Position numbers and translations under genes: made by a program | In this document: positions 2,722-31,034 of the stretch, in pieces | Numbering within the stretch: the stretch's first letter is position 1 | How the letters are laid out: every line of letters starts with the position of its first letter | Notes under the pieces: model-generated | What the model was told of the DNA's origin: nothing | The model's database searches: none | What the model saw: only the letters and a program-made list of their open reading frames with translations | Assembly (NCBI RefSeq): GCF_002201895.1 | Contig: NZ_CP019436.1 | Coordinates: 744,001 to 808,000 of the forward strand | Reading direction: 5' to 3' | From: Methanopyrus sp. SNP6 | GTDB lineage: Archaea > JAADCQ01 > Methanopyri > Methanopyrales > Methanopyraceae | Length of the DNA: 64,000 nucleotides

Positions 2722-3507
2722 TCACCCCCGGACGTACTCGAGGACCTCTTCTAACGTGGGAGTGTCAACTCTCAGGCGCTCGAAGAACCGAATGAGGTTC
2801 CGCAAATCACGTATCAACAGCTCTTCGGCGATAGGATGATCCAGCACGACCCCTTGGGAGAAATCTATGATCACGTAGTCGCCCTCGCCCCGGTAGAGGA
2901 CGTTGTACTCGCTGAGGTCGCCGTGGACTATCTCGGCTTTACGATACATCCTGCGGTAGTCATCGAGGATATTCGAGAAAACGTCTTCCGCGTATTCTTC
3001 CTCCGGAGGATTGTCCTTCATCAACGGGTACGGGTTCCCTTCGTCATCTCCTATGAACTCCATAATCAGTACATTGTTCAAGTGAGCGATCGGCTCAGGA
3101 CACCTTACACCGGCCCCGTAAGCTCGGGTTAAGTTCTTGAATTCCTTCTCGGCCCAGGCATAGACGATACGGTGTCGTTTTCGCCCGATGTTCTCGAATC
3201 TGGGATCGCCCCGGATATACCTCCACATCCGGCGGAAGTCGCTGGTAGCGACGCGGTAAATCTTGACGGCGACTAGCTCGTCGCCACGGACTCCCCTGGC
3301 GACGTTGGCTTCCTTCCCAGTCTTCACGAACCCCATGAGCCCGTCGATATACCCACGCCTGGACAGCTCGTACAGGGTCATTAGGGTGTACTGGTCGAAG
3401 ACTTCCTCTTCTACCTTCAGGTCTTCCAGGGTTTTCTCCAGTCTTTTGACCTTTCCTGGTTTCGGCTCCAGTTCCTCGATCGCGGAGAAATACTTATCCT
3501 CGGTCAA
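2722..3507 (-). CDS. rio1: RIO1-type serine/threonine protein kinase
   Basis: Atypical protein kinase of the RIO family, involved in late small ribosomal subunit maturation in eukaryotes and archaea. Visible elements are the nucleotide-binding segment with GKEANVARG and VAVKIY (ATP-binding Lys), the hinge motif LIMEFIG, the catalytic loop VHGDLSEYNVL and the metal-binding IIDFSQGV. The length of 261 residues is typical for archaeal RIO1. It sits between eIF1A and the KH protein, with very short gaps on both sides. Confidence 0.9.
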   Translation of the reverse strand: MTEDKYFSAIEELEPKPGKVKRLEKTLEDLKVEEEVFDQYTLMTLYELSRRGYIDGLMGFVKTGKEANVARGVRGDELVAVKIYRVATSDFRRMWRYIRGDPRFENIGRKRHRIVYAWAEKEFKNLTRAYGAGVRCPEPIAHLNNVLIMEFIGDDEGNPYPLMKDNPPEEEYAEDVFSNILDDYRRMYRKAEIVHGDLSEYNVLYRGEGDYVIIDFSQGVVLDHPIAEELLIRDLRNLIRFFERLRVDTPTLEEVLEYVRG

Positions 3508-3509
3508 AG

Positions 3510-3845
3510 TCAGGCGCCCGGTATAATCTCCTCGAGGAGCTCGGTCACTCGTTCGTCCAATTTACCCTTGCGCTTCAGCCAGTCGACCTGTACCCTAGTA
3601 TACCTCCACGTAACGTCGGCGCGTTCAGGTTGGAATTCCCATGGTTTCACAAGAACAACGTCTCCCTCCCTGATCCAGACACGCTTCCGCATCTTTCCGG
3701 GTATCCTCGCCACTCTAGTCTTTCCGTCGACACACCTCACCTGCACTCGGTCGTTACCCAACATTTTCTCCACGACTCCAAATATTTCACCTTCCTTTGG
3801 GAGTCTGATCTTCTTCAGAGTCTCGTCGTCGATACGCTTACCCAT
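3510..3845 (-). CDS. eif1A: Translation initiation factor aIF1A
   Basis: OB-fold initiation factor that binds the A site of the small subunit and helps scanning and start selection. The conserved core includes [19 protein letters not shown] and the basic segment [17 protein letters not shown]. The open frame extends three codons further upstream, but the ATG at 3845 has a GGGGGTG Shine-Dalgarno sequence six bases ahead, so I chose it (111 residues). It is cotranscribed with Pcc1 upstream (8-base overlap) and RIO1 downstream. Confidence 0.92.
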
Positions 3846-4119
3846 CTGCGTCACCCCCGTCTTTAGCCGGTCTCACGAGCTTAAGTACTTCCTCGGAAAC
3901 TCGGACGCACGCCAGTAGCGCGTCGATACCGGACAGCACCTTCACAGGGCTCCGAGCCTCGAACGTCACTCTGACGCGATTCCCTCGCATACCGATCTCG
4001 TGGTGGAAACCTTTGGGTCCACCCTCCCACAGAACGCCGGAAGCTACTTCGGCGGGCAGTTCGAGGACGAGCTCTCCTTCGAGTCGCGAGTCGCCATCAA
4101 CCCCTTTATGATGGTGCAC
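3838..4119 (-). CDS. pcc1: KEOPS complex Pcc1-like subunit
   Basis: A 93-residue protein resembling the archaeal Pcc1 family, the small dimerising subunit of KEOPS, which makes t6A at position 37 of ANN-decoding tRNAs. The fit is by size and fold-like pattern: an N-terminal acidic beta strand, the central [20 protein letters not shown] segment (20 residues, with the Arg-x-x-hydrophobic pattern of the family) and a C-terminal helix. The GTG start overlaps the end of TyrRS by 14 bases. The call is reasonable but based on eye only. Confidence 0.6.
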
Positions 4120-5080
4120 TCATAGCTTTCCTTACTGGTCTCAGGATCTCAGAGAGGTACCTCGCGGCGTTTTCCTTCAAGTCGAGCGGGTGGAGCTCAC
4201 CGTCGATGAAGTCCCGCTCCAGCTCTTCGTAGCTGGTGTAAGTGACGTCTCCACCGTATTTCTTCGGACGTTCGATCGTAACCTCATCGTACTCCCGGAA
4301 TATGAAGTACCGGTAGATCTCGAGAACAGGGTTGCCTTCGGCTTCACGGGCCGGACAATACGCCTTACGAAGCTTCTCTCGGATGACCTCCGGCTCGTCA
4401 TCGACGGCGATGAAATTGTTCCTGCTTGAGGACATCTTTTCGTCTCCGTCGAGCCCGTGGATGATCGGGGTGTGTAAGCACGTCGGCGAGTCGTAACCTA
4501 TCTTGGGAAGCACGTCCCGGGCTAACATGTGGATTTTGCGCTGTTCGAGCCCACCGATAGCCAGATCGACGTTCAGGTGCACGATATCCAGTGCCTGCAT
4601 AAGGGGGTAAACGACCTGGGATACCGGAGGATTTTCCTCACTCCTGGCGATCATATCCATGCTGCGTCGGGCTCGGCGCATGGTAGTATGGCGAGCCATC
4701 CGGTACACGTCCAGCGCGTAGTCTTCGTCCAGCTGAAACTCCGACCCGAGGACGAACTCGGTCTTGTTCGGGTCCAAACCCATCGCCAGGAAGCATCGGC
4801 GGTTGTAATCCGCCAGTTCACGCACCTCCTCTAACGTGCCTTTCTCGTTGAGATATGCGTGGAGATCTGCTAGGAGTATGATCACATGGAAACCGGCCTC
4901 TTGGAGATCGATCATCTTGTCGATGACTAGCTTGTGGCCGAGGTGAACTTTACCCGAGGGCTCGAACCCGACGTACGCTACGGGTTCTTCTTTTTCCTCT
5001 AGAAGTTGTCGAAGCTCCTCTTCAGTTACGACCTCGACGGCGTTTCGGGTTACGAGTTTCAACCTCTCCTCGACGTCCAC
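4106..5080 (-). CDS. tyrS: Tyrosyl-tRNA synthetase
   Basis: Archaeal-type class I tyrosyl-tRNA synthetase of 324 residues. The HIGH-like motif is PSGKVHLGH near residue 41 and the KMSKS-like motif is EKMSSSRNN near residue 215. The archaeal/eukaryotic type lacks the bacterial S4-like C-terminal domain, and the length agrees. It starts with GTG and lies between NMD3 (upstream) and Pcc1 (downstream, overlapping) in a tight minus-strand operon. Confidence 0.93.
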   Translation of the reverse strand: MDVEERLKLVTRNAVEVVTEEELRQLLEEKEEPVAYVGFEPSGKVHLGHKLVIDKMIDLQEAGFHVIILLADLHAYLNEKGTLEEVRELADYNRRCFLAMGLDPNKTEFVLGSEFQLDEDYALDVYRMARHTTMRRARRSMDMIARSEENPPVSQVVYPLMQALDIVHLNVDLAIGGLEQRKIHMLARDVLPKIGYDSPTCLHTPIIHGLDGDEKMSSSRNNFIAVDDEPEVIREKLRKAYCPAREAEGNPVLEIYRYFIFREYDEVTIERPKKYGGDVTYTSYEELERDFIDGELHPLDLKENAARYLSEILRPVRKAMSAPS

Positions 5081-5112
5081 GGACGAGACCCCCTGGCGGC
5101 GTCCCGCGTCCG

Positions 5113-6177
5113 TTAAAGGTATTCTTCAGGAACTATCACGGCGACGCCTCTCAGCAGAATCACGTATACGCGCTGTCCGACGTGAAGGTCGATATCACTT
5201 TCATAACACTCGACCGTTTCACCCGTACGCTCTAACACGACACGGGGCGGGGTGTCTTCGATCACCACGGCGGGTTCGGGCTTCAGAACTTCGACGCCCT
5301 TCATCTCCTCCCACTCACGTTTGACCACCTCCCCGTTGATGAGATGACGAAGGGAACACCTCTCACCCAGGCCTGTGACTAGGTAAGGCTGGCCATCCAC
5401 CAGTAGGATATCTCCTTTCCGGAAATGAGGTATCCTCACGGAGATGGTGGCTTTGTACTTGCTCTTACCGCGCTCGCGGTCGAACCCGACGAGCTTGTGC
5501 GACTCCCTTACGATCCCGCCGTACGCATCGACGAGGCGGCGGGCGAGCTTGCGTGCGGCATTAAGCGAACCGATGTAGAAGTCGATACCCTCATCCGGAT
5601 ACTCCACATCAGAGATGTAGGCCATAGGATCACGCTCGAGCAGTGAGGCGGCCACTTCCGTCACGAAGTTTTCGACTTCCTCCCGCTCACGCTCGGTCAG
5701 CTTACCTCGAAGCGACCGCACTTGGAGTATGGCCTCGTAGTATCCAGACCGGAATTTCATGCACCGATCACACAGCGCGAAGACTACCGGGACCCTGAGG
5801 TGGTACTTCCGGGTGAAGACTTCCTCTCCTACCTCCCATTCACTATCGGCGAGTAACTCGACAAGGACGCGGGTTCCGGGACCACCAGGTTCACCCTTAA
5901 CCTCTAGAGGTTCTATCCGGACGTCCACATCGGGGAGCGTTCGGAGGTTTTCTTCTAACTCCCTAAGCACGTACTCCACGAGCAGCTCTTCGGTACTCCC
6001 GACACTTTCAGGAGGGTCTTCCCAGCGCAGCCCGGTGTAACGTGCTAAACACTGCGCACAGACTCGGACCTCCAGTCCCTCGGGTACTTCGATAATCGGG
6101 TGTTCTTCCAGGTAACATTCAGGGCACAGGCCGTCTATTGTCGTATCGACCTCACGTCCGCACCGATGACATATCAG
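5113..6177 (-). CDS. nmd3: NMD3-related ribosome-associated protein, full length with non-standard start
   Basis: Archaeal NMD3 family protein linked to large-subunit biogenesis and export in eukaryotes. Using only ATG/GTG/TTG starts the gene would begin at 5979 and lose about 66 N-terminal residues. The frame stays open upstream to 6177 and encodes exactly the zinc-binding part typical of NMD3: CHRC, CPEC and CAQC pairs, joined later by CDRC. The frame is closed by a stop just before a CTG at 6177-6175, followed by ATA then TGT. A GGGGGTGA Shine-Dalgarno sequence (6193-6186) overlaps the stop of the upstream gene at the right distance for CTG. The family call is strong; the exact start codon (CTG or ATA) is inference. 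Confidence 0.85.
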   Translation of the reverse strand: MICHRCGREVDTTIDGLCPECYLEEHPIIEVPEGLEVRVCAQCLARYTGLRWEDPPESVGSTEELLVEYVLRELEENLRTLPDVDVRIEPLEVKGEPGGPGTRVLVELLADSEWEVGEEVFTRKYHLRVPVVFALCDRCMKFRSGYYEAILQVRSLRGKLTEREREEVENFVTEVAASLLERDPMAYISDVEYPDEGIDFYIGSLNAARKLARRLVDAYGGIVRESHKLVGFDRERGKSKYKATISVRIPHFRKGDILLVDGQPYLVTGLGERCSLRHLINGEVVKREWEEMKGVEVLKPEPAVVIEDTPPRVVLERTGETVECYESDIDLHVGQRVYVILLRGVAVIVPEEYL

Positions 6178-6184
6178 CTACCCT

Positions 6185-7288
6185 TCACCCCCGTTCTGGG
6201 ACGTATAGACGGTTGTCGGGAATGCCCACGGTGTTGCCGACTCCTACGATGATCACGGTGCTGTCCTCAGGGGCCTCTTTGGCAAGTTCGAGAGCACGTT
6301 CGGCGGCTTCTTCCACGGCGTCGACGACGGGCTTAGGCATGGGCATGACAGCTTCCGTCGCACTCATCTTGATAGCCACCGCATCAAGATCGATGCCTTC
6401 CTCGGCCGCGATCTGCTCGATTTTGTAGCTCTCATGGCCGGGATCACCCATGGCTACTCCCACGCCCTCGCTGACTTTGCCTGTTTTCTCTCCTTCGAGT
6501 TTGAGTGCGGCGTCGATAGTTATAATCTTAGAAACATCACCGTATTCTCTTACGAGTTTCTTTACGGCACGTCCAAGTTTGCCTAAGTTACCACCGGGCC
6601 CATGCGCCTTGACTATCACCAATCTGCGTCCCTCTAGCTCCTTCTCGGCGGCCACAGTACCTTTCTCCACCTCTCGAACTGGTGAGTCTCCGATGAGCCT
6701 AGCCGCGACCATGGGGCCGACGCTGTCGCCGATAGGCACACACTTGAGGAATGCTTTCGCACCCTCGTAGTTACTCTTCACGAACTGTTTAAATGTCGGC
6801 AATAGCATGGTTATTAGAAGTAAGAGCTGTATGTTGTTGGTTTTCTTGGCTGACAACAGCAGGTGTCGGAGATATTGAGCGATAACATGGATGGAGAATA
6901 CGCACGTAAGTGCCATACTCATGTTATCTACTTCGACACCATCGCGTTTTCCTGTGAGTACTCTTGCGTACGAGCGGAACTTATCTTCACTCCGCTCGAT
7001 CAAGTTTTCAAGGCGTTCAATAATACCGTGAGGATCCAATTGCACAGGCTGAACCACGAATAGGTTTGCAGCCCGTTGTACGAGTGTTTCAGCCTCTTCC
7101 CTATCGCATCTGGCCTGCCTCACTACCATCTGCTGGACTTTCTCGTCTATTTTCCGTATACGTTCTACTTCTCCCTCTATCCTCCTGAAGAGCACCACCT
7201 GATAGTAGACCCGAATGAAGAGCCAAAAGAGGACGATGGAGACAATAAAATACACCAGGTTCTCGACTAATGACGTGTCCACGTTCAA
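6185..7288 (-). CDS. Conserved archaeal membrane protein, probably DUF1512
   Basis: About 367 residues with an N-terminal membrane segment (roughly residues 12-30), a coiled middle part, another hydrophobic stretch around residues 175-190, and a soluble C-terminal part with glycine-rich motifs (AHGPGGNLGKLG, VAMGDPGHESYK, VIIVGVGNTVG). This looks like the archaeal DUF1512 family of unknown function. The open frame reaches 7297 (GTG); the TTG at 7288 has a better-spaced GGGGTG Shine-Dalgarno sequence. It is the first gene of the operon that continues into NMD3 and TyrRS, two bases being all that separates its stop from the NMD3 leader. Confidence 0.6.
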   Translation of the reverse strand: MNVDTSLVENLVYFIVSIVLFWLFIRVYYQVVLFRRIEGEVERIRKIDEKVQQMVVRQARCDREEAETLVQRAANLFVVQPVQLDPHGIIERLENLIERSEDKFRSYARVLTGKRDGVEVDNMSMALTCVFSIHVIAQYLRHLLLSAKKTNNIQLLLLITMLLPTFKQFVKSNYEGAKAFLKCVPIGDSVGPMVAARLIGDSPVREVEKGTVAAEKELEGRRLVIVKAHGPGGNLGKLGRAVKKLVREYGDVSKIITIDAALKLEGEKTGKVSEGVGVAMGDPGHESYKIEQIAAEEGIDLDAVAIKMSATEAVMPMPKPVVDAVEEAAERALELAKEAPEDSTVIIVGVGNTVGIPDNRLYVPERG

Positions 7289-7373
7289 CGCCAGCACCCC
7301 ATGGAAGGTCGCTGGACTCCGTCACCCTTATACGTGATGGAATCTGTGTTGCCGGTTGGCGGGGGGACCCGAG

Positions 7374-7811
7374 TTGGCGCTAAAGAACCCGGCGGTTCAC
7401 TTACTCTCGGCGTTGTCCCTATGGGGGGTCGCCGGGCTCATACTCGCTGGTGCGCAGTCAGGACTAATCTCGTTCGCCTCCGTACTGTCCTCCGATCCCG
7501 GTATGGTTTTAAACGCTTTCGTCCTCTTCCTAGCGCTCGTTAGCGCAAACTCTCCCGCAACTTTCGCAGAGGTCTACATGGGAGAACCTCAACCGTATGC
7601 GATAGCATCGATACTGTTCGGATTCACTCCTATAATACCATATCTAATGATTTCACCCTTTCGATGTAATGTGCTTGTGTTAACGGCGTGGTGGAAGCCC
7701 ATAATCATAGCCTTACTAGCGATATGGTGTATAGAGTTTGTAATATATTATCGCAAGGTGAAAGTCTTCGGGTACAGATACGTGAACGTTCACAGATTCG
7801 TATTCCGCTAG
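7374..7811 (+). CDS. Small hypothetical membrane protein
   Basis: A 145-residue protein with four or five hydrophobic segments and a short basic C-terminus (YYRKVKVFGYRY). I do not recognise the family. The TTG start at 7374 follows a GGGGGGAC Shine-Dalgarno sequence, and a TATA-like CTTATACG lies near 7328. The 3' third is clearly AT-richer than the surrounding genes. It converges on the SpoU-family gene and overlaps its stop by four bases. Confidence 0.6.
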   Translation: MALKNPAVHLLSALSLWGVAGLILAGAQSGLISFASVLSSDPGMVLNAFVLFLALVSANSPATFAEVYMGEPQPYAIASILFGFTPIIPYLMISPFRCNVLVLTAWWKPIIIALLAIWCIEFVIYYRKVKVFGYRYVNVHRFVFR

Positions 7812-8512
7812 TCCTGTCTCTTGACTCCTAGAATACGCCGTTTAGCTTTCTCGAATATCCACAGTAGTGCCTTGATTTCTTTATCTGTACATCTTGCTCT
7901 GGCGAGAAACCTCCGGAAAGTCGTGCATACGTTCTCGCGACGGGTGCTGTCGAAGTTCAAAGTCTTCATGAGGTCGTCCAAGGACTTCACTAGCACCTCC
8001 TTCTCTCGCTTGGTGGCAGTACGGCCGTACCGTTCAGGCACATACTCTACCTTCTTAAGCTCATAAAGTACTACGGCCACGGAATGCGAGAGGTTCATGG
8101 AACGGTACTCCTCGCTTGTCGGGATATGAAGGGTGGCGTCGCAAATCTCGACCTCCCAAGTCCTCAGACCTCTGTCTTCGGGCCCGAATACCACGGCGAT
8201 CTTCTCGTAGTCAGAAAACGTCTCTCTAACCTCCCAAGGCATCATTGGATTCCTAGCGGGTGTTGAGGCGAGGACAGCGGTCGTCGCTATGGCCGCCTCC
8301 ACGTCCTCGATAGCCTCCTCCAACGTGTCCACTATCACCGCGTTCTCCAACAGGTCGAGCGCGTGCATCGCCCGAGCTATCGCCACTTCGCCGAGCTCTG
8401 ACCTAGGCCTTACTAAAAAGAGCTCCTTTACCCCGAAGTTTTTCATGACACGGGCTACGTGACCGACGTTCCCGTCGTACTTCGGCTCTACCAGTACCAC
8501 CCGCACGTCCAA
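7808..8512 (-). CDS. SpoU/TrmH-family (SPOUT) RNA 2'-O-methyltransferase, TrmJ-like
   Basis: SPOUT-fold RNA methyltransferase, most similar in pattern to archaeal TrmJ, which methylates the ribose of position 32 in tRNA. The three SpoU motifs are visible: EPKYDGNVGHVARVMKNFG (motif 1, Asn-x-Gly-x-x-x-Arg), VFGPEDRGL (motif 2), and RSMNLSHSVAVVLYEL (motif 3). The start TTG at 8512 has a GGAGGA sequence six bases upstream; the open frame goes further but would run into the divergent gene. Only 16 bases separate this start from the GTG of the GNAT-ABC gene. Substrate RNA is inferred from family. Confidence 0.82.
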   Translation of the reverse strand: MDVRVVLVEPKYDGNVGHVARVMKNFGVKELFLVRPRSELGEVAIARAMHALDLLENAVIVDTLEEAIEDVEAAIATTAVLASTPARNPMMPWEVRETFSDYEKIAVVFGPEDRGLRTWEVEICDATLHIPTSEEYRSMNLSHSVAVVLYELKKVEYVPERYGRTATKREKEVLVKSLDDLMKTLNFDSTRRENVCTTFRRFLARARCTDKEIKALLWIFEKAKRRILGVKRQD

Positions 8513-22221: not shown

Positions 22222-22991
22222 TTGAGGTACGTCGACGCGCACGTACACCTCGACGTTAGGAGTTACGAAAACATCGAGAAGATGGCTTTATCTGGAGTCC
22301 GAACTGTCATCACGTGCTCTCACGATCCCTACCCTGACATGACGGCCGAAGTGTACTCCGCCCTCTTTCGGAGGCTACTCAAAGTGGAAACGTGGAGAGG
22401 CAGAAAGGCAGGGCTAACGGTCAGAGTGGCAGTGGGAGTACATCCGGGAGGAGTACCGGATAACGTGAGTGACGTGCTACGGGAAATCGAAGATCTCCTA
22501 AGTTATGATGACGTCGTAGCGATCGGAGAGACAGGTCTCAACGAAAATCCGGACGATAGAGATCCGAGCCTTAAAGGTCCAGCTGGAGTTAGCCCGAGAA
22601 TACGAGGTACCCATCATTGTCCACACGCCGAGCAAGAACAAGGTTGGAATCACCGAGAAGGTGTTGGATATCTTGAATTCCTCGGGTATAGATCCATCAC
22701 TGGTGTTAGTGGACCACGCCTCGGCGGAGGACCGTCCAGCTAATCGGTGAGGAAGGGTACGCGGTTGGGCTGACACTCCGACCGGGAGAGCTCGACGTGT
22801 GGGAAGCGTGTGATATCGTAGAGGAGTACGCCGACGAGGTGACGCTCATCGCGAGCAGTGACCTGGGATCACTAGCCGCCGATCCACTCGCTCTCCCCAA
22901 GCTAGCCCTCGAACTGGAACGCCGGAACGTCGAGAAAGGCGTTATCCGGGACGTTACAGCCCGGAACGCCAAGAGGTTTTACGGGCTCTAA
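22222..22991 (+). pseudogene. TatD-like metal-dependent hydrolase, broken by two frameshifts
   Basis: The gene starts at TTG with the metal-binding DAHVHLDVRS and reads to GETGLNENPDDR in one frame. The homology continues one frame over as LELAREYEVPIIVHTPSKNK and VLVDHASAE, and then a further frame over as LIGEEGYAVGLTLRPGELD to the end (NAKRFYGL). Each switch is equivalent to one extra base; the second lies in GCGGAGGACC near 22725. All TatD-family motifs are present if the frames are joined, so this is either a recently broken gene or sequence error at two places. An intact TatD paralogue lies at 34.1 kb. Confidence 0.8.
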
Positions 22992-23211
22992 CCCCTAGCC
23001 CTAGAGCACGAGGTTTCAGGCAGCTCCGGTTCCTTCCTTTATCGATCACGCGGGCGGGTGATCAAGCCTGTCAGAGCAACCCCACATTGAAGACGAATCC
23101 TACAGCGATTCCTAAGGATCACTTCCTCATCACGAGACCGATTAAGACCTGAGGACGAACCCTCGTTCTAGTCGTCCTTGATGACGTTTCACGAGGGGCC
23201 GTGAGGACCGA

Positions 23212-23967
23212 TTGCGCTTCGCCGCGCTCTACTCACATCCGTTCGGTAAGAGGATGATAGCCAATCTACTGAACGAACCCGGTCACTGCAGAGCTTGCGG
23301 GCCTGCATGCGACGGATGCAAGTACGACATGTACTCCCTCGTCGACTCCCTTGTCACCGTTGAGAGGATACCTAAACCGGAGGAGTTACCATCGTTCATC
23401 GACGAGCCAAAGAACTACCTCCCAGAAATACCACCAGTAGATGTTCTTGTGGTGATCGGATTGCACCCAGACCTCCTTGTAGCGTTACCCAGAGTGTACA
23501 AAATCAAGGCACTGATAGTACCCGTCGAGGAACCCGATTGGATCGACCCGTGGATCGAGGAGAAACTACGAGAGGTGTGCGAAGGAGACGGCGTGGAGCT
23601 CACCGTGGCGAGGCCAGGGTGCGACCTGGAACCGTCGGGTCCCGTAACCGAGGCGTTCTGCGACGCGGGCATGATCGGGAAGCCTAAGCTGTTTATGAAG
23701 GTCGAGGACGGCGTCGTGACCGACGTCAACGTAGTACGATCGGCGCCATGCGGTTGCACGTGGTTCGTGGCCAAACGACTGGTCGGTGTGGACGCTGATC
23801 CCGAAGAGGTGAAGGCTACAGTTTCCGAGACGCACCACTCGTACCCCTGCACGGCTTCGATGGAGGTCGACAAGCACGTCGGGGACACCCTGCTCCACGT
23901 AGCGGGACGGTTGCACATCAAGGCGGCTCTCCGAGCGCTCGAAGAAGCGATAGATACCGACACCTGA
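23212..23967 (+). CDS. DUF166 family protein
   Basis: A 251-residue methanogen protein of the DUF166 family, sometimes loosely labelled thymidylate-synthase-like. Conserved cysteines cluster at the N-terminus (CRACGPACDGCKYD) and near the C-terminus (APCGCTWFVAKRL, HHSYPCTASMEVDKH). The cysteine pattern suggests an iron-sulfur or metal site. It starts at TTG with GAGGACC upstream. The preceding 220 bases hold no convincing gene. Biochemical function is not known to me. Confidence 0.7.
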   Translation: MRFAALYSHPFGKRMIANLLNEPGHCRACGPACDGCKYDMYSLVDSLVTVERIPKPEELPSFIDEPKNYLPEIPPVDVLVVIGLHPDLLVALPRVYKIKALIVPVEEPDWIDPWIEEKLREVCEGDGVELTVARPGCDLEPSGPVTEAFCDAGMIGKPKLFMKVEDGVVTDVNVVRSAPCGCTWFVAKRLVGVDADPEEVKATVSETHHSYPCTASMEVDKHVGDTLLHVAGRLHIKAALRALEEAIDTDT

Positions 23968-24442: not shown

Positions 24443-24452
24443 CAAACGTTTG
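24443..24452. promoter_or_regulatory. Palindrome CAAACGTTTG in cooS upstream region
   Basis: A perfect 10-base palindrome lies between the divergent hypothetical gene and cooS, about 17 bases upstream of the cooS TATA-like box. Its position would suit a regulator operator. Only symmetry and location support this. Confidence 0.3.
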
Positions 24453-24467
24453 ATGAAAATCGAAACT

Positions 24468-24476
24468 AATATAAGT
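24468..24476 (+). promoter_or_regulatory. TATA box for the cooS operon
   Basis: TAATATAAG preceded by CGAAAC, resembling BRE plus TATA. Transcription would begin near 24500, giving a leader of about 45 bases before the GTG start of cooS. Confidence 0.5.
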
Positions 24477-24542: not shown

Positions 24543-26459
24543 GTGGAAGAGAAGAAACCTTCGTGTCCGTACACTGATGAAGTCGTATGCGAACTGGTCG
24601 AGCACGCGAAGGAGCTGAATGAGGAGATACCGAGTGTAGAGACCCCACATATCCGATGGCCAGTTCAGTTCCCGAAATGCCCGTATGGCAAGCAGGGCGT
24701 TTGGTGTAACATCTGCTCGAACGGCCCGTGCCGGATCACGGAGAAGACGCCACGAGGTGTCTGCGGAGCGACGGCGGACGTGATCGTAGCACGGAACTTC
24801 TTGCGTCACGTCGCCGCCGGAGCCGCCTGCTACTTACACTGCCTGGAAAACGCCGCCAGGGCCTTAAAGTCCGTAGCGGACGAGGAATCCCCTTACGAGA
24901 TCGCGGACGAGAAGGCGCTGAGGCACGCTGCCGAAGTTTACGGTCTAGATGCATCAGGTAAACCGGAAGACGTGGCCGAAGAGATCGCGGAGTTCATCCT
25001 CGAGGACATTTACAGGCCGAGATACGAGGAATCGGAAGTGTTCAAGGCGGTTGTGCCGGATTGGCGTATCGAGATGTATGAAGAAATGGGTCTAATTCCG
25101 GGCGGAGCTAAGTCGGAGGTACACGACGCACTCGTCAAGACAAGTACGAACCTCAACTCAGATCCCTTAGACATGCTCCTCCACGTGCTGCGGCTGGGAC
25201 TGATCACCGGACCTGTTTCGCTCTTCGGAGTGGAGACGATCAACGATATCCTCTTCGGTAGCCCGAGGATCACGCAAACGGAGGGTGGTCCCGGAATATT
25301 GGATCCGGACTATGTCAACATCATGACCACCGGTCACCAGATGTCTCTCATGAAATACCTAACGGACGCCGCCGAGAGGCTGGAAGAAGAGGCCAAGGCG
25401 GCAGGCGCTAAAGGCATCAGGATCATCGGTGCGACGTGCGTCGGTGACGATTTCGAGGCACGTGCCGACCACCTACCGGACACGTACGCGGGTTTCGCGG
25501 GCAACAATTTCGCTACGGAGGCACTCGCAGCGACGGGTCTCGTGGACGCGATCGTGAGCGAGTTTAACTGCACGTTCCCAGGTCTGAAGTTCTACGGTGA
25601 AAAGCTGGACGTTGAGCTGATCGCAGTCGACGACGTGGCTAAGGTGTGGGGAGCAAAGCTGATCTTATGGGACCCGGAGCGTGCCGAAGAGGTCGCGGAG
25701 GAGGCCGTCCGGAGAGCTATAGAGGCGTTCAAGGAGCGGAGGTCGAAGCACGAAGATAAGATCCTAGAGCCGGAGCATAAGCACGAGAACGTGGTCGGGT
25801 TCGGATACTTCTCGATCGAGGAGGCGGTAGGTTGGGAGAACGTTCTCAAGCTGATCGAAGAGGGCACCATCCGCGGAGTGTGCGCCATCGTGGGTTGTAC
25901 GAACCTCTCCAGCGGCGGCCACAACGTGCCGGCGGTCGAACTCGCAAAGGAGATGATCAAGCGCGACGTGCTCGTGCTCGGTGCAGGTTGTGTGAACGGA
26001 GCGTTCGCCAATGCTGGAATGTTCAACCCTAAGGCAGCCGAGCTGGCCGGTGATAACCTCAGGAAGGTGTGCGAGGAGTTGAATATTCCACCGGTACTGC
26101 ATTACGGCCCGTGTTTAGCGATCGGTAAAGTCGAGCATCTCGTTTTCGAGATCGCAGAGATACTTCGAGAGAAAACAGGTGAGGAAATCGACATACCGGA
26201 CGTACCCGCCGTTGCGAGTGCGCCGCAGTGGCTCGAGGAGCAAGCCCTAGCGGACGCGTCCTCGGCCCTAGCTCTAGGTATCACGCTGCACGTGAGCCCA
26301 GTGCCGCCAGTGACCGGTAGCGAACTGGTTACGAAGACGTTGCTGGAAGACCTACCGGACCTCACCGGCGGCGAGCTGATTGTAGAGACGGACATGAGAC
26401 GGGCCGGAAAGACCCTAGCCGATAAGATCGAAGAAAAGCGGAAACGGCTCGGTATCTAG
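24543..26459 (+). CDS. cooS: Carbon monoxide dehydrogenase catalytic subunit, CooS type
   Basis: Monofunctional-type Ni-Fe CO dehydrogenase of 638 residues that interconverts CO and CO2. B-cluster cysteines are Cys55, Cys58, Cys63 and Cys74. C-cluster ligand positions are recognisable as the His of MTTGHQMSL and cysteines in GATCVGDD, EFNCTFPG, AIVGCTNLSSGGHN, GAGCVNGAFANAG and YGPCLAIGK. The D-cluster position equal to the second bridging cysteine is Trp54 rather than Cys, with Cys46 as the remaining one. It is followed by homologues of the F420-reducing hydrogenase large, small and beta subunits, suggesting an electron-transfer partner complex. Confidence 0.92.
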   Translation: MEEKKPSCPYTDEVVCELVEHAKELNEEIPSVETPHIRWPVQFPKCPYGKQGVWCNICSNGPCRITEKTPRGVCGATADVIVARNFLRHVAAGAACYLHCLENAARALKSVADEESPYEIADEKALRHAAEVYGLDASGKPEDVAEEIAEFILEDIYRPRYEESEVFKAVVPDWRIEMYEEMGLIPGGAKSEVHDALVKTSTNLNSDPLDMLLHVLRLGLITGPVSLFGVETINDILFGSPRITQTEGGPGILDPDYVNIMTTGHQMSLMKYLTDAAERLEEEAKAAGAKGIRIIGATCVGDDFEARADHLPDTYAGFAGNNFATEALAATGLVDAIVSEFNCTFPGLKFYGEKLDVELIAVDDVAKVWGAKLILWDPERAEEVAEEAVRRAIEAFKERRSKHEDKILEPEHKHENVVGFGYFSIEEAVGWENVLKLIEEGTIRGVCAIVGCTNLSSGGHNVPAVELAKEMIKRDVLVLGAGCVNGAFANAGMFNPKAAELAGDNLRKVCEELNIPPVLHYGPCLAIGKVEHLVFEIAEILREKTGEEIDIPDVPAVASAPQWLEEQALADASSALALGITLHVSPVPPVTGSELVTKTLLEDLPDLTGGELIVETDMRRAGKTLADKIEEKRKRLGI

Positions 26460-26491
26460 TTCCAACCCACACTTCCGGGATGGTGATGGTC

Positions 26492-27592
26492 ATGGAGATC
26501 GAGGCGATCCGTATCGCAACGGGAGCTCCTGGCGATCTGTATATGGTGGCAGAAATCGCGGAGGGCGAGGTTGTAAACGCCGAAGTGTGCTCTAGTACGA
26601 CACCAGTCTCCTGGGAGACGCTCGTCCTCGAGAAGCCCGTGGAGTTCGCCGTGGTAGCAGCCGAACGAGTATGCGCCAGCTGTGACGCGAGTCTAGGGCT
26701 CGCCGTAGCCGAGGCGGCCGAGGCGGCTCTTGACGTCGAGATCCAGGACGAAGCAGAGCGAGCGCGTGAGATTCTGAACATGGCTAACATCGTCAGGGCA
26801 CACGCCACCGTGCTGGCGAGGACCGACTTCATCAACGTGAAGAAGCCAGCATACGACCTGGTAAAGGCAGCGAAAGACATCATGCATGCCGTCGGAGGAA
26901 AGCCAGATCACCCACCGGCCGTGACCGTAGGAGGTATGAACATCGAAAGGCTACCCGTAAACAGGATTGAATCCGTAGCCAAAGATGCCGCCGATGTAGC
27001 AGACAGGCTCGAAGACGAGGTCGGATTCGAGGTAGATCGGGCGGAGGAAGGTATCAATGTGGAGACTGAAGAGGTACCGACGGGACTGAAGGTTTCGGAT
27101 ACATACAAGGGCGACATAGATCCAGACAAGGTCGAGGTTCTAATGCCGGACGAGTTCTACCGGATGAGAACCACCCTGAAGATAGCGAACAACGTCGTCG
27201 CCAGGTATGACGGGGAACCCGTCCTCGTCGGTCCTTACGCCCGAGTAAGGAGAGTGGAGAACCCGCTAGACCTCTACACCGTCAGGGCCGAGGAAATAGC
27301 GAGGATGCTCGACGGTATCGCAAACGCCACATCCGGGCTAGACCCGACCGGGAACTTCCGAACGGACGTCGAGCTCGGCTCGGGAGTGGGTACGGCGGCC
27401 GTGGAGGCACCAGAAGGTACTCTGATCGTCTCGCTGGAACTACGGGCGGGGCGCGTGGATAAAGCCCTGATGCTAACACCATGCAACTTCAAGGTTGCGG
27501 CGGTCGTGGAGATGGTACGCGGCCTGACGGTTGACGGGGCTGAAACCGTTCTGCGCGCGGTCGGCCTCTCCGGTAGATGTCTTACTCACTAG
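26492..27592 (+). CDS. F420-hydrogenase large-subunit homologue with degenerate Ni-Fe site
   Basis: A 366-residue homologue of FrhA-type [NiFe]-hydrogenase large subunits. The N-terminal ligand motif is CASCDASL (Cys61, Cys64); the His usually four residues after the second Cys is Leu68. The C-terminal motif reads SGRCLTH at the end of the protein, with Ser360 where the first terminal Cys (or Sec) is expected and Cys363 and His366 kept. There is no C-terminal extension for proteolytic maturation. The protein therefore may not carry a working Ni-Fe centre. ATG at 26492 follows GGTGATGG. It lies 32 bases after cooS. Confidence 0.8.
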   Translation: MEIEAIRIATGAPGDLYMVAEIAEGEVVNAEVCSSTTPVSWETLVLEKPVEFAVVAAERVCASCDASLGLAVAEAAEAALDVEIQDEAERAREILNMANIVRAHATVLARTDFINVKKPAYDLVKAAKDIMHAVGGKPDHPPAVTVGGMNIERLPVNRIESVAKDAADVADRLEDEVGFEVDRAEEGINVETEEVPTGLKVSDTYKGDIDPDKVEVLMPDEFYRMRTTLKIANNVVARYDGEPVLVGPYARVRRVENPLDLYTVRAEEIARMLDGIANATSGLDPTGNFRTDVELGSGVGTAAVEAPEGTLIVSLELRAGRVDKALMLTPCNFKVAAVVEMVRGLTVDGAETVLRAVGLSGRCLTH

Positions 27593-27604
27593 GGGGAGCT
27601 CGAA

Positions 27605-28330
27605 GTGAAGGTGGCTGTTCTGTCCCTTATGGCTTGTGGTGCATGCGCCAGGAACCTGGAGGAGTGTTGCTACGAAGATGGTCATGAGATAGTCTGGTCG
27701 AGCCTAGATGGCGACGAAGGAGAACCGGACGCCGACGTTCTGTTCGTAGAAGGCTCGGTGGACTTTGCCGACGCCGAGACCCTGGAGAAGTTAGAGGAGG
27801 CGGCTTCAGCCGCCAGCACTGTGGTATCACTGGGCTCCTGTGCTGCCACCGGAGGTTTCGAGCGACACGTTATAGGCATGCGCGATCCCGACAGACACCA
27901 CTTTACGGTCTTCCCAGCCGCCAAATTCATCGACACGGACTATGCTATCAACGGCTGCCCACCCACTACTGACGTGATCGCATCCTTCCTCAGAGCGCTA
28001 GAGGAGGGGAACGAGGATGAACTCCGGCCGTACGAAGTCCTGTCCGGGGATTTCCACGAGCTTACACCGGAGTCATCCCAAGTAACCGGTCCGACGATAC
28101 CGGTCGAGGACGTGCTCCTGACGTCGAACAAGGACTTGTGCTTAGGCTGTGACTTAGACGTGATTGAGAGAGATCTCTTCTGCGTTGGCTGCGGAACGTG
28201 CGCCGCCTCCTGTCCGGCGTGGGCCATCGAGATGGACGAGAAACCAGTGATCCAACAAGAGAGATGCATTCGGTGCGGAACTTGCTTCGTGAGTTGTCCT
28301 AGATCGTTCGAGATCCCCAATGGGAGGTGA
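27605..28330 (+). CDS. F420-hydrogenase small-subunit (FrhG) homologue with ferredoxin domain
   Basis: A 241-residue protein combining the hydrogenase small-subunit fold with a C-terminal two-cluster ferredoxin domain. The proximal-cluster cysteines are visible as CGAC (Cys11, Cys14), GSCAATGG and NGCPPT. The ferredoxin part has CLGC, CVGCGTCAASCP and CIRCGTCFVSCP. All the iron-sulfur ligands look intact, unlike the large-subunit homologue upstream. It probably passes electrons between CooS and the FrhB-type flavoprotein encoded next. Confidence 0.85.
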   Translation: MKVAVLSLMACGACARNLEECCYEDGHEIVWSSLDGDEGEPDADVLFVEGSVDFADAETLEKLEEAASAASTVVSLGSCAATGGFERHVIGMRDPDRHHFTVFPAAKFIDTDYAINGCPPTTDVIASFLRALEEGNEDELRPYEVLSGDFHELTPESSQVTGPTIPVEDVLLTSNKDLCLGCDLDVIERDLFCVGCGTCAASCPAWAIEMDEKPVIQQERCIRCGTCFVSCPRSFEIPNGR

Positions 28331-28333
28331 TCT

Positions 28334-29245
28334 ATGTTGCGCAAACTGATCCGAAAAATGGTGAATAAAAACAAAGATGAACCCACAAAGAACGACCCCC
28401 TGGACTCCGAGATCGTAGGTAAGTACCGTGAAATCTACTTAACCAGAGCAACGGACGAACTCATTCGCGAGCGCGGACAGGACGGAGGTACCACTACTGC
28501 GCTGCTAGCCCACGCGTTGGAGAAGGGTACGGTGGAAGCCGTAGTCACTTCGACTACCACAACAGAAGCTTGGAAGCCCGAGCCCGTGATCGTCACCGAT
28601 CCAGACGAACTAATCGAGACAGCCGGATCGAAGTACTCAATCTCTCCAAACGTTAGCGTCCTCGACAGGGCCATAGCTTCGTATGACTCAGTAGCCCTCG
28701 TAGGGACGCCGTGTCAAATTACCGCAGTGAAGAAGTCGGAGGTGTACCCTTACGGAATGACCAGCGTGATGGATAGGGTGGAACTGACAGTCGGTATCTT
28801 CTGCACCGAGAACTTCCAGTACGAGAACCTACTGAAGTTACTTGAAGATATAGAAGTAAGCATCGAGAACGTCGAGCGTATGGACATCAGTCGTGGTAAA
28901 TTCGTAGTAAAAACCGAGGACGGTGATGAACGGTCGGTACCGGTTTCCGAGCTAGGCGATTACGCCAATGAAGCGTGTAACTACTGCACGGATTTAACGG
29001 CTGAGGACGCAGACGTCAGCGTGGGATCCGTAGGCGCGCCAGACGGGTGGAATATCGTCCTGATTCGAACGAAGAGAGGCGAGAAGGTGTTCCGATCCGC
29101 CGTAGACGACAACGTCCTAGAAGTCAAGGGTATCGGAGAAGGGGATCCGAACCTGCTCGAGAGACTGGCCAGGGACAAGAAGAGGCGCATTCATACCTCA
29201 GTGTGTGCCACTTGGAGGCCCTACCACCCAAACATTCCATTATAA
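28334..29245 (+). CDS. FrhB-type coenzyme F420-reducing flavoprotein subunit
   Basis: A 303-residue member of the FrhB/FdhB family, which carries FAD and an iron-sulfur cluster and exchanges electrons with coenzyme F420. Typical segments are QDGGTTTALLAHALEKG, the GSKYSISPN loop, VGTPCQITAVKK, GIFCTENF and EACNYCTDLTAEDADV. The start ATG follows a perfect GGAGGTGATC Shine-Dalgarno sequence three bases after the previous gene. It is last in the cooS-frh-like operon, arguing that the operon couples CO oxidation to F420. Confidence 0.87.
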   Translation: MLRKLIRKMVNKNKDEPTKNDPLDSEIVGKYREIYLTRATDELIRERGQDGGTTTALLAHALEKGTVEAVVTSTTTTEAWKPEPVIVTDPDELIETAGSKYSISPNVSVLDRAIASYDSVALVGTPCQITAVKKSEVYPYGMTSVMDRVELTVGIFCTENFQYENLLKLLEDIEVSIENVERMDISRGKFVVKTEDGDERSVPVSELGDYANEACNYCTDLTAEDADVSVGSVGAPDGWNIVLIRTKRGEKVFRSAVDDNVLEVKGIGEGDPNLLERLARDKKRRIHTSVCATWRPYHPNIPL

Positions 29246-29268: not shown

Positions 29269-29733
29269 GTGATAGGACCGCGGGACTTCCTGAGGTACTT
29301 CCTCTTCTCTTACATAGTCACCTCTGCACAGCTGCTTGGAGATAAAGCTCCAACTCTGCGGCGAATGGTATGCAAAAACGCGGTAAAGGCGTTACTGCGC
29401 GAGCATCCGGAGCTGAAAGACGTTGAGCCTGTAGAGCTTGTCAAAACTGTGGCAGAGAGCCTTCTAGGGGCAGACGTCAGGGTAGATGAGAAGTCGGAAG
29501 AAGCAGTCGTACATGTGAGAGGGTGTGAGATCTGCCCTCGCGATCTGATCGAAGAGTTCGTAGGCGAAAACCCCAGCTTAGAAGGTCACATCTTCAGCTA
29601 CAACGTGTGCGCGTTTGCGACTATGGCTGAGGAGGTTCTGCACGCTCTGGATTATGATTTCATCATCGAACACGAACCGATCAAACGCGGGCACTGCCGC
29701 GTAATCGTCAAGTCTAGGGATACTGAGAATTGA
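29269..29733 (+). CDS. V4R-like (4-vinyl-reductase-fold) small-molecule-binding protein
   Basis: A 154-residue protein whose C-terminal part (VRGCEICPRDLIEEF, then NVCAFATMAEEVLHAL and ending GHCRVIVKSRD) resembles V4R domains, with conserved cysteines. It lacks a DNA-binding domain. GTG at 29269 has CAGGGGTC upstream; the longer open frame overlaps the FrhB-like gene and is not used. The next gene (30297) also has a V4R domain, fused to a helix-turn-helix, so the two may work together in redox or ligand sensing. Confidence 0.55.
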   Translation: MIGPRDFLRYFLFSYIVTSAQLLGDKAPTLRRMVCKNAVKALLREHPELKDVEPVELVKTVAESLLGADVRVDEKSEEAVVHVRGCEICPRDLIEEFVGENPSLEGHIFSYNVCAFATMAEEVLHALDYDFIIEHEPIKRGHCRVIVKSRDTEN

Positions 29734-30296: not shown

Positions 30297-31034
30297 ATGA
30301 AGTTGATGATTAACGTGCCGAAGGAGATCGCAAAGGCTTTGGACAGCAAAACGCGGCGTGAGATTCTGAAACTGCTGGAAGAACGCGGATCGATGACTAT
30401 ATCGGATATCGCCAAAGAACTGAACATGTCCAAATCGACTGTTCATCACCATTTGCAGGAACTCCGAAAGGTCGGTCTCGTGGACGTCATTAAGGAGGAC
30501 CGCGAAACTCCACTCCCGAAGCGTTACTACGGGCTAGTGAGGAGACCCGTCCGAGTGTCGGAACCGAAGCTCGAAGACGCGTCCAAATACGTCATGAAAG
30601 TCCTAGAACGTGGGGAAGATCTGGGAACGTCGATGGCACTAGTGATCGCGGCCGCATATCGCGCGGTGTTGGAATCGCTGGGTATTGACGCTTCGGAGGT
30701 CCTGTACGAGCTCGGAAAGGAGGTCGGTAAGCGACTAGCGGAACTGGAACCTGGGGAGGACGTGCTACGGAAGGGCTTAGAGATCATAGCAGAGTCAGTG
30801 GAATTCCGTCAGGAGGACGACCGTGTGGTGGTCGAGATTGAAGGATGTCGAGAGTGTTCCGACCTACCCTACGGCCCCGCATGTCATCTGGAAGCGGGAA
30901 TAATAGCTGGTGTTCTGTCGAGTTTGAGGGAACTAACTTACGAAGTCCGAGAGATAGAGTGCTGCGGAGAGGGCGCTCATAAATGCGTGTTCGTGGCGGA
31001 GCCAGCTACTGGCGAAGAACACCCCAGGTCCTAG
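30297..31034 (+). CDS. HTH-V4R transcriptional regulator, MsvR-like
   Basis: A 245-residue protein with an N-terminal ArsR-type winged helix (SKTRREILKLLEERGSMTIS, with the recognition helix MSKSTVHHHLQEL) and a C-terminal V4R domain with cysteines in GCRECSDLPYGPACHLE and IECCGEGAHKCVF. This layout matches MsvR, a methanogen redox-responsive regulator. ATG follows AGGGGGTCC. It lies near the CO dehydrogenase operon, but no MsvR-type site (TTCGTA-N4-TACGAA) was seen. It overlaps the convergent gene by 29 bases. Confidence 0.75.
   Translation: MKLMINVPKEIAKALDSKTRREILKLLEERGSMTISDIAKELNMSKSTVHHHLQELRKVGLVDVIKEDRETPLPKRYYGLVRRPVRVSEPKLEDASKYVMKVLERGEDLGTSMALVIAAAYRAVLESLGIDASEVLYELGKEVGKRLAELEPGEDVLRKGLEIIAESVEFRQEDDRVVVEIEGCRECSDLPYGPACHLEAGIIAGVLSSLRELTYEVREIECCGEGAHKCVFVAEPATGEEHPRS

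Follow-up and report, generated by a model that had tools for sequence, protein, structure and literature searches.

A CooS operon with a degenerate F420-hydrogenase module in Methanopyrus and Methanococci, probably encoding an F420-linked complex without hydrogenase activity

For carbon monoxide dehydrogenases (CODHs) of clades C and D, low or no CO activity is considered likely, and redox or regulatory roles have been proposed (PMC13056359). The CooS of T. kivui, assigned to clade C in that study, oxidises CO slowly, with low CO:ferredoxin activity, and T. kivui cannot grow on CO without it (PMC8683389). Within clade C, the signature of group C-3 (complete C-cluster ligands, a Tyr, a Gln and a single D-cluster Cys) has been tabulated in PMC6344411, which reports the group from Methanocaldococcus and Methanotorris only and finds coexistence with a [NiFe] hydrogenase catalytic subunit for groups E-1, F-1 and F-2 only. 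The cooS genes of M. kandleri and M. vulcanius were described beside an F420-reducing hydrogenase in 2011, and their products were placed as an outgroup to that paper's clade C (PMC3082573); in 2026 the neighbourhood was extended to archaeal clade C and its role called unclear (PMC13240472). Both papers treat the hydrogenase as a real one. Here we describe such an operon in a stretch of 64,000 nucleotides from the Methanopyrus sp. SNP6 genome (1,421,521 bases in total; contig NZ_CP019436.1, positions 744,001 to 808,000), referred to below as the window, and we conclude that its cooS and three F420-hydrogenase-like genes form a real, conserved and functional module that is not a hydrogenase and is probably an F420-linked CooS complex.

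The operon consists of four genes on the forward strand (window 24543-29245). The first gene, cooS (24543..26459), encodes a monofunctional Ni-CODH-like protein of 638 aa (TIGR01702, 722.7 bits with a cut-off of 478), and it is followed, after gaps of 32 (or 20, depending on the start of the second gene), 12 and 3 bases, by genes for a FrhA-like large subunit (26492..27592, or from 26480), a FrhG-like iron-sulfur (Fe-S) subunit of 241 aa (27605..28330) and a FrhB-like F420-oxidoreductase subunit of 303 aa with FAD and [4Fe-4S] sites (28334..29245), which we call FrhA', FrhG' and FrhB'. FrhB' passes the NF006807 cut-off (345.7 bits, cut-off 269) but falls under the stricter cut-off of TIGR03289, and it also matches PF04422 and PF04432. 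FrhG' does not reach the cut-off of the FrhG model (142.4 bits, cut-off 245.5), and FrhA' is far from reaching that of the frhA model (121.4 bits, cut-off 392.5; PF00374, 30.6 bits). Counted from the first ATG (26480), FrhA' has 370 aa, and it has 366 aa from Met5 (26492), which is conserved and appears the more likely start. Its closest sequence relatives in the PDB are the alpha subunits of F420-reducing hydrogenases.

In [NiFe] hydrogenases, each ligand pair consists of a terminal Ni ligand, the first Cys, and a bridge between Ni and Fe, the second Cys. The Arg of the EAPRG motif is essential for H2 chemistry. We tabulated these positions in 17 copies of the module and in 13 copies of true FrhA, in which the motifs are RICG(I/V/L)C...H, EAPR, and D(P/I)(C/U)xxCxxH followed by a tail. 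In the FrhA' proteins of Methanopyrus the corresponding stretches read ERVC(A/R)(S/G)CDAS(L/A)G, EAPEG, and GLSGRCLTH at the very end, while in those of Methanococci they read RLC(Y/C)LNEISH (RLCCNTEVSN in one), EGGEG (ESPEG in one), and CERCYYL at the end. The window copy has RVCASCDASL at L1, where the canonical motif is RICGICxxxH, and ends with GLSGRCLTH and a stop codon, where the canonical form is D[PI][C/U]xxCxxH plus an extension. Neither lineage retains all four Cys/Sec ligands. The pairs are CxxC/SxxC in Methanopyrus, where the L2 terminal ligand is replaced by Ser and the L1 His by Leu or Ala, and CxxN or CxxT/CxxC in Methanococci, where the L1 bridging ligand is replaced by Asn or Thr and the N-terminal hairpin is gone, making the protein about 70 residues shorter (298 aa). 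All module copies carry Glu in place of the EAPRG Arg and have lost the N-terminal EGH Glu motif. The C-terminal maturation extension is also absent, with all five Methanopyrus copies stopping at the His, so that the last residue coincides with the end of mature FrhA, and the Methanococci copies stopping at CYYL.

Judged from these residues, it is well supported that FrhA' is not a normal [NiFe] hydrogenase. The residues rule out an active hydrogenase, and selenocysteine (Sec) at the missing ligand is ruled out by its codon, which is TCC and not TGA. A working CODH-hydrogenase with an unconventional site, converting CO to H2 or passing electrons from H2 to F420, would fit the possible hydrogenogenic CO metabolism inferred for M. 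jannaschii from its CODH-hydrogenase operon (PMC4652020) and the annotation as F420-reducing hydrogenase in PMC3082573 and PMC13240472. We regard it as extremely improbable, since each lineage lacks one of the Cys that bind the metals, the His of L1 or L2, the catalytic Arg, the Glu relay and the C-terminal extension; the residues of the module therefore contradict the published reading of a CODH plus a working F420-reducing hydrogenase. In our literature search, with subscription papers outside its reach, we came across no statement that the active site of the hydrogenase subunit is missing, and a search of papers for the MJ locus tags gave no match. The same genome encodes a true FrhA elsewhere (G000:C1:1149121-1150269, reverse strand), whose ligand codon is an in-frame TGA, interpreted as Sec, and whose C-terminal tail is normal.

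An earlier reading of the window, made from its letters and open reading frames without database searches (the sequence-only reading), had pointed to Leu68 and Ser360, to the missing maturation tail, and to a module that is no longer a hydrogenase. The residue numbers are right when counted from Met5 and correspond to Leu72 (codon CTA) and Ser364 (codon TCC) of the longest open reading frame. The tail is indeed missing, as FrhA' stops at the L2 His where true FrhA continues, and the loss of hydrogenase function agrees with the ligand Cys, His, Arg and Glu losses in the alignment with FrhA. Our analysis goes beyond that reading with the Arg to Glu change and the EGH loss in FrhA' and with the missing acid-base His and Lys and one D-cluster Cys of CooS, described below.

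The electron chain on the F420 side of the module is intact. FrhG' has C11, C14, C79 and C118 for the proximal cluster, the Cys of two ferredoxin-type clusters, and C179/C182. The Cys of its proximal, medial and distal clusters are all kept in every full-length copy of both lineages, as are C127, C157, C215 and C218 of FrhB'. When we considered the columns that are invariant in 12 true Frh sequences, FrhG' retained 63% of them in both lineages and FrhB' retained 58% in Methanopyrus and 51% in Methanococci; for FrhA' the figures are 34% and 32%. A module-specific stretch of FrhG' around VLLTSNKDLCLGCD (residues 170-183) is a candidate docking site.

The gene order cooS-frhA'-frhG'-frhB' is present in all five Methanopyrus genomes (the window genome and four others) and is identical in all 12 Methanococci genomes that carry such a cooS, ten of one genus and two of another, with two of these loci cut by contig ends. 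When the window is compared with a near relative, the pairwise ratios of nonsynonymous to synonymous substitution rates (dN/dS) are 0.06 for cooS, 0.21 for frhA', 0.10 for frhG' and 0.17 for frhB', and true frhA has 0.07 in the same comparison. Purifying selection thus acts on the whole set of four genes; on frhA' it is relaxed about threefold but still clear. The same order in 17 genomes together with the dN/dS values rules out a chance operon or a decaying gene. In IQ-TREE phylogenies the subunits of the module split from true Frh with support of 95/90 for FrhA, 99/95 for FrhG and 94/90 for FrhB. This fits one origin of the three Frh-like proteins, and we take it as support and not proof because the FrhA and FrhB trees bring long branches together. 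In genome G144, which has no such cooS, a 395-aa fusion protein (L147:7309-8496, forward strand) joins a FrhA'-like part, 44% identical to FrhA' of Methanococci, to a shortened FrhG'-like part without the ferredoxin domain.

We considered whether FrhA' could be non-functional debris, retained only through its position inside the operon. FrhA' evolves faster than its neighbours (53-87% identity, with 88-95% for CooS), and the genome with the L147 fusion to a shortened FrhG' carries no such cooS. In contrast, the reading frame is open in 17/17 copies with dN/dS of 0.08-0.22, the predicted fold is compact and confident, and two former active-site ligands, Cys65 and Cys367 (window numbering), are invariant in 17/17 copies, so we consider debris very unlikely. 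The AlphaFold2 models of FrhA' have mean confidence scores (pLDDT) of 88.5 for Methanopyrus and 91.8 for the Methanococci form, and their template modeling (TM) scores to FrhA (9r51), the best PDB match of the Methanopyrus model (9r51_A), are 0.90 and 0.89, respectively. The prediction is partly steered, since sequences of true FrhA were among those in the input alignments.

CooS itself is atypical. All 17 sequences share the C-cluster ligands H265, C299, C343, C452, C483 and C524 as well as the B-cluster Cys. Two replacements are equally constant, Tyr97 for the acid-base His and Gln567 for the Lys. At the D-cluster, C46 is kept and the second Cys is replaced by Trp54 in Methanopyrus or Tyr in Methanococci (16 module copies). 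The Methanopyrus CooS is about 55% identical to the Methanocaldococcus-type CooS, and it appears to match group C-3 of clade C, a label that rests on the residue signature and this identity. In a PDB search with CooS, the second-best match was 7b7q, which we take to be CODH-V.

These features led us to weigh a flow of electrons in the opposite direction, from F420H2 through FrhB' and FrhG' to a CooS cluster that would reduce a toxic small molecule (hydroxylamine, NO, peroxide or O2), in the manner of hybrid cluster protein (HCP) or CODH-V. The replaced acid-base residues and the match to 7b7q are in line with it, and so is the genomic neighbourhood. In several Methanocaldococcus-type genomes, one flank of the operon carries genes for ferritin, peroxiredoxin, rubredoxin, rubrerythrin, an FprA-type flavo-diiron protein and an iron-sulfur flavoprotein, and in five of them HCP lies on the opposite flank; all five Methanopyrus genomes have rubrerythrin a few genes upstream. 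O2-induced clade C-1 genes are cited in PMC6344411, and in L090 the genes that come after a clade-C-like cooS read as cydAB. However, all six C-cluster ligands are kept, unlike in CODH-V (group D-1), which argues for Ni; HCP was not found in Methanopyrus; and the stress neighbours are common mainly to close relatives. We therefore see a reductase as a serious competitor that is nonetheless unlikely. At the L090 locus (L090:3599-9771, genome G011), cooS combines the Tyr/Gln signature with a full D-cluster motif, and it is flanked by DUF166 and ArsR-V4R genes on one side and the cydAB-like genes on the other. A different second cooS, with the canonical His and Lys, lies beside a CooF-like ferredoxin gene in L119 (G177:C1:284000-297000, about 3500-8000, reverse strand), where a 544-aa protein fusing FrhB-like and ferredoxin domains is also encoded; this locus is a better candidate for a plain CO:F420 oxidoreductase.

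We consider an F420-linked CooS complex without hydrogenase activity to be highly likely, and it speaks for this reading that the genome has its own true, Sec-containing Frh besides the module. We infer the physical complex, the electron route, F420 as partner and CO as substrate as follows. CooS, FrhA', FrhG' and FrhB' would form one soluble complex, in which CooS, with its complete C-cluster, would exchange two electrons at that cluster and pass them to the B-cluster. Because CooS has lost the surface D-cluster, the electrons would then enter FrhG' directly from the B-cluster, and continue through the FAD/[4Fe-4S] of FrhB' to F420. FrhA', with the [NiFe]-hydrogenase fold but no functional Ni-Fe site, would serve as a scaffold for FrhG' and as the docking surface for CooS, comparable to Nqo4 in complex I. 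Most likely, the net reaction would oxidise CO, slowly or for protection, and reduce F420. Electron transfer from CO to F420 is downhill, from about -520 mV to about -360 or -380 mV (PMC4652020, PMC10210160), and CO-dependent F420 reduction in methanogen extracts has been reviewed (PMC4652020). CO to F420 is our leading hypothesis for the specific reaction, and we give it about an even chance. Several points weigh against the F420-linked CO-oxidizing complex: the acid-base His and Lys found in well-studied CODHs are missing from CooS, clades C and D are argued to be likely low in CO activity or devoid of it (PMC13056359), the Methanococci operon often lies among oxidative or nitrosative stress genes, which suits a reductase better, and long branches join in the FrhA' and FrhB' trees.

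Cys65 and Cys367 are invariant in 17/17 copies, whereas the two lineages differ in how they lost the remaining ligands. The vacated [NiFe] site may therefore have been re-used, with FrhA' holding a new metal centre or a thiol switch that gates electrons between CooS and F420. We regard this as a speculative reading with a small chance of being right; if true, the module would represent a new class of soluble oxidoreductases, CO:F420 or F420H2-dependent, that derive from an inactivated hydrogenase. Should the module prove to be an F420-linked CooS complex, it would be a hydrogenase core turned pure electron adaptor outside complex I. Clade C-3, of all CODH groups the one least understood, would gain a concrete redox partner, and CO or stress chemistry would be linked directly to the F420 pool in hyperthermophilic methanogens.

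The sequence-only reading had further described CooS followed within a few bases by homologues of the three F420-hydrogenase subunits, with the FrhG-like and FrhB-like proteins keeping their Fe-S motifs, and had proposed looking for the same order in other genomes. The four reading frames and their gaps (20-32, 12 and 3 bases) bear out the first of these, all cluster Cys are present in full-length copies, and the order recurs in 17 genomes. Its interpretation holds for the lack of hydrogenase function, the intact FrhG/FrhB path, and a conserved module under selection. Its assignment of CO as substrate and F420 as acceptor is a hypothesis, as this CooS falls in a group with replaced acid-base residues and the CO activity of clade C is low or disputed. 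Two further points need qualifying. Calling the large subunit a structural remnant may be too strong given the two invariant Cys, and the arrangement is less unusual than was supposed, the neighbourhood having been published in 2011 (PMC3082573) and 2026 (PMC13240472), in both cases as a real hydrogenase.

The surroundings of the operon are partly conserved. A putative BRE/TATA-like (B recognition element and TATA box) promoter element, CGTTTGATGAAAATCGAAACTAATATAAG, lies 5' of cooS on the forward strand (24447..24475) and is partly kept in five aligned Methanopyrus upstream regions. Upstream on the same strand, a gene for a DUF166 protein (23212..23967; PF02593, 246 bits), a conserved neighbour and possible member of the unit, is found in all five Methanopyrus genomes. 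Downstream, also on the forward strand, a gene for a protein with an ArsR-type HTH and a V4R domain (30297..31034; PF01022, PF02830), a candidate regulator, is full length in four of the five Methanopyrus genomes, and the fifth has a partial match elsewhere. These conserved regulators near the operon, and the redox or regulatory roles proposed for clades C and D (PMC13056359), are compatible with a CO- or redox-sensing complex that would control the HTH-V4R regulator or other genes and would not be a bulk catalyst. The complete and strictly conserved chain to F420 exceeds what a sensor needs and the Methanococci loci have no fused or shared regulator, making this improbable in our view. A small open reading frame without a Pfam match follows frhB' (29275-29733, forward strand) and is conserved, with 46-73% identity, throughout the five Methanopyrus genomes. 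Further upstream, a TatD-like gene (22222-23000, forward strand) is frameshifted in the window and intact in L022 and L025, which may be real or a sequencing error.

Compared with described systems, the module is closest in its Frh-like part to FrhABG (group 3a; PDB 3zfs, 9r51), with which it shares the three subunit families, the large-subunit fold and the Fe-S Cys of FrhG and FrhB. It differs in having no usable Ni-Fe site, C-terminal extension or catalytic Arg, and in a gene order with cooS first and no room for frhD. The core of complex I and Fpo (Nqo4/FpoD with Nqo6/FpoB) is also a hydrogenase large subunit that lacks Ni-Fe and still carries its Fe-S subunit, but it is linked to the membrane and its empty site has been given over to quinone, whereas the module would be soluble, is nearer to FrhA and is paired with CooS. 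CODH-V and hybrid cluster protein belong to the same superfamily as CooS, and CODH-V also has Tyr for the acid-base His (group D-1, PMC6344411), but its C-cluster has Glu in place of a Cys, whereas CooS of the module keeps all ligands. T. kivui CooS-CooF1 (PMC8683389) is likewise a clade C CooS tied to an Fe-S electron-transfer partner, with measurable CO oxidation, but its acceptor is ferredoxin via CooF1, and it has no F420 or hydrogenase-derived subunits. The CooS agrees with clade C-3 (PMC6344411) in its complete C-cluster ligands, in His to Tyr and Lys to Gln, and in the single D-cluster Cys, and to the group as described there the module adds Methanopyrus and a linked, degenerate [NiFe] large subunit.

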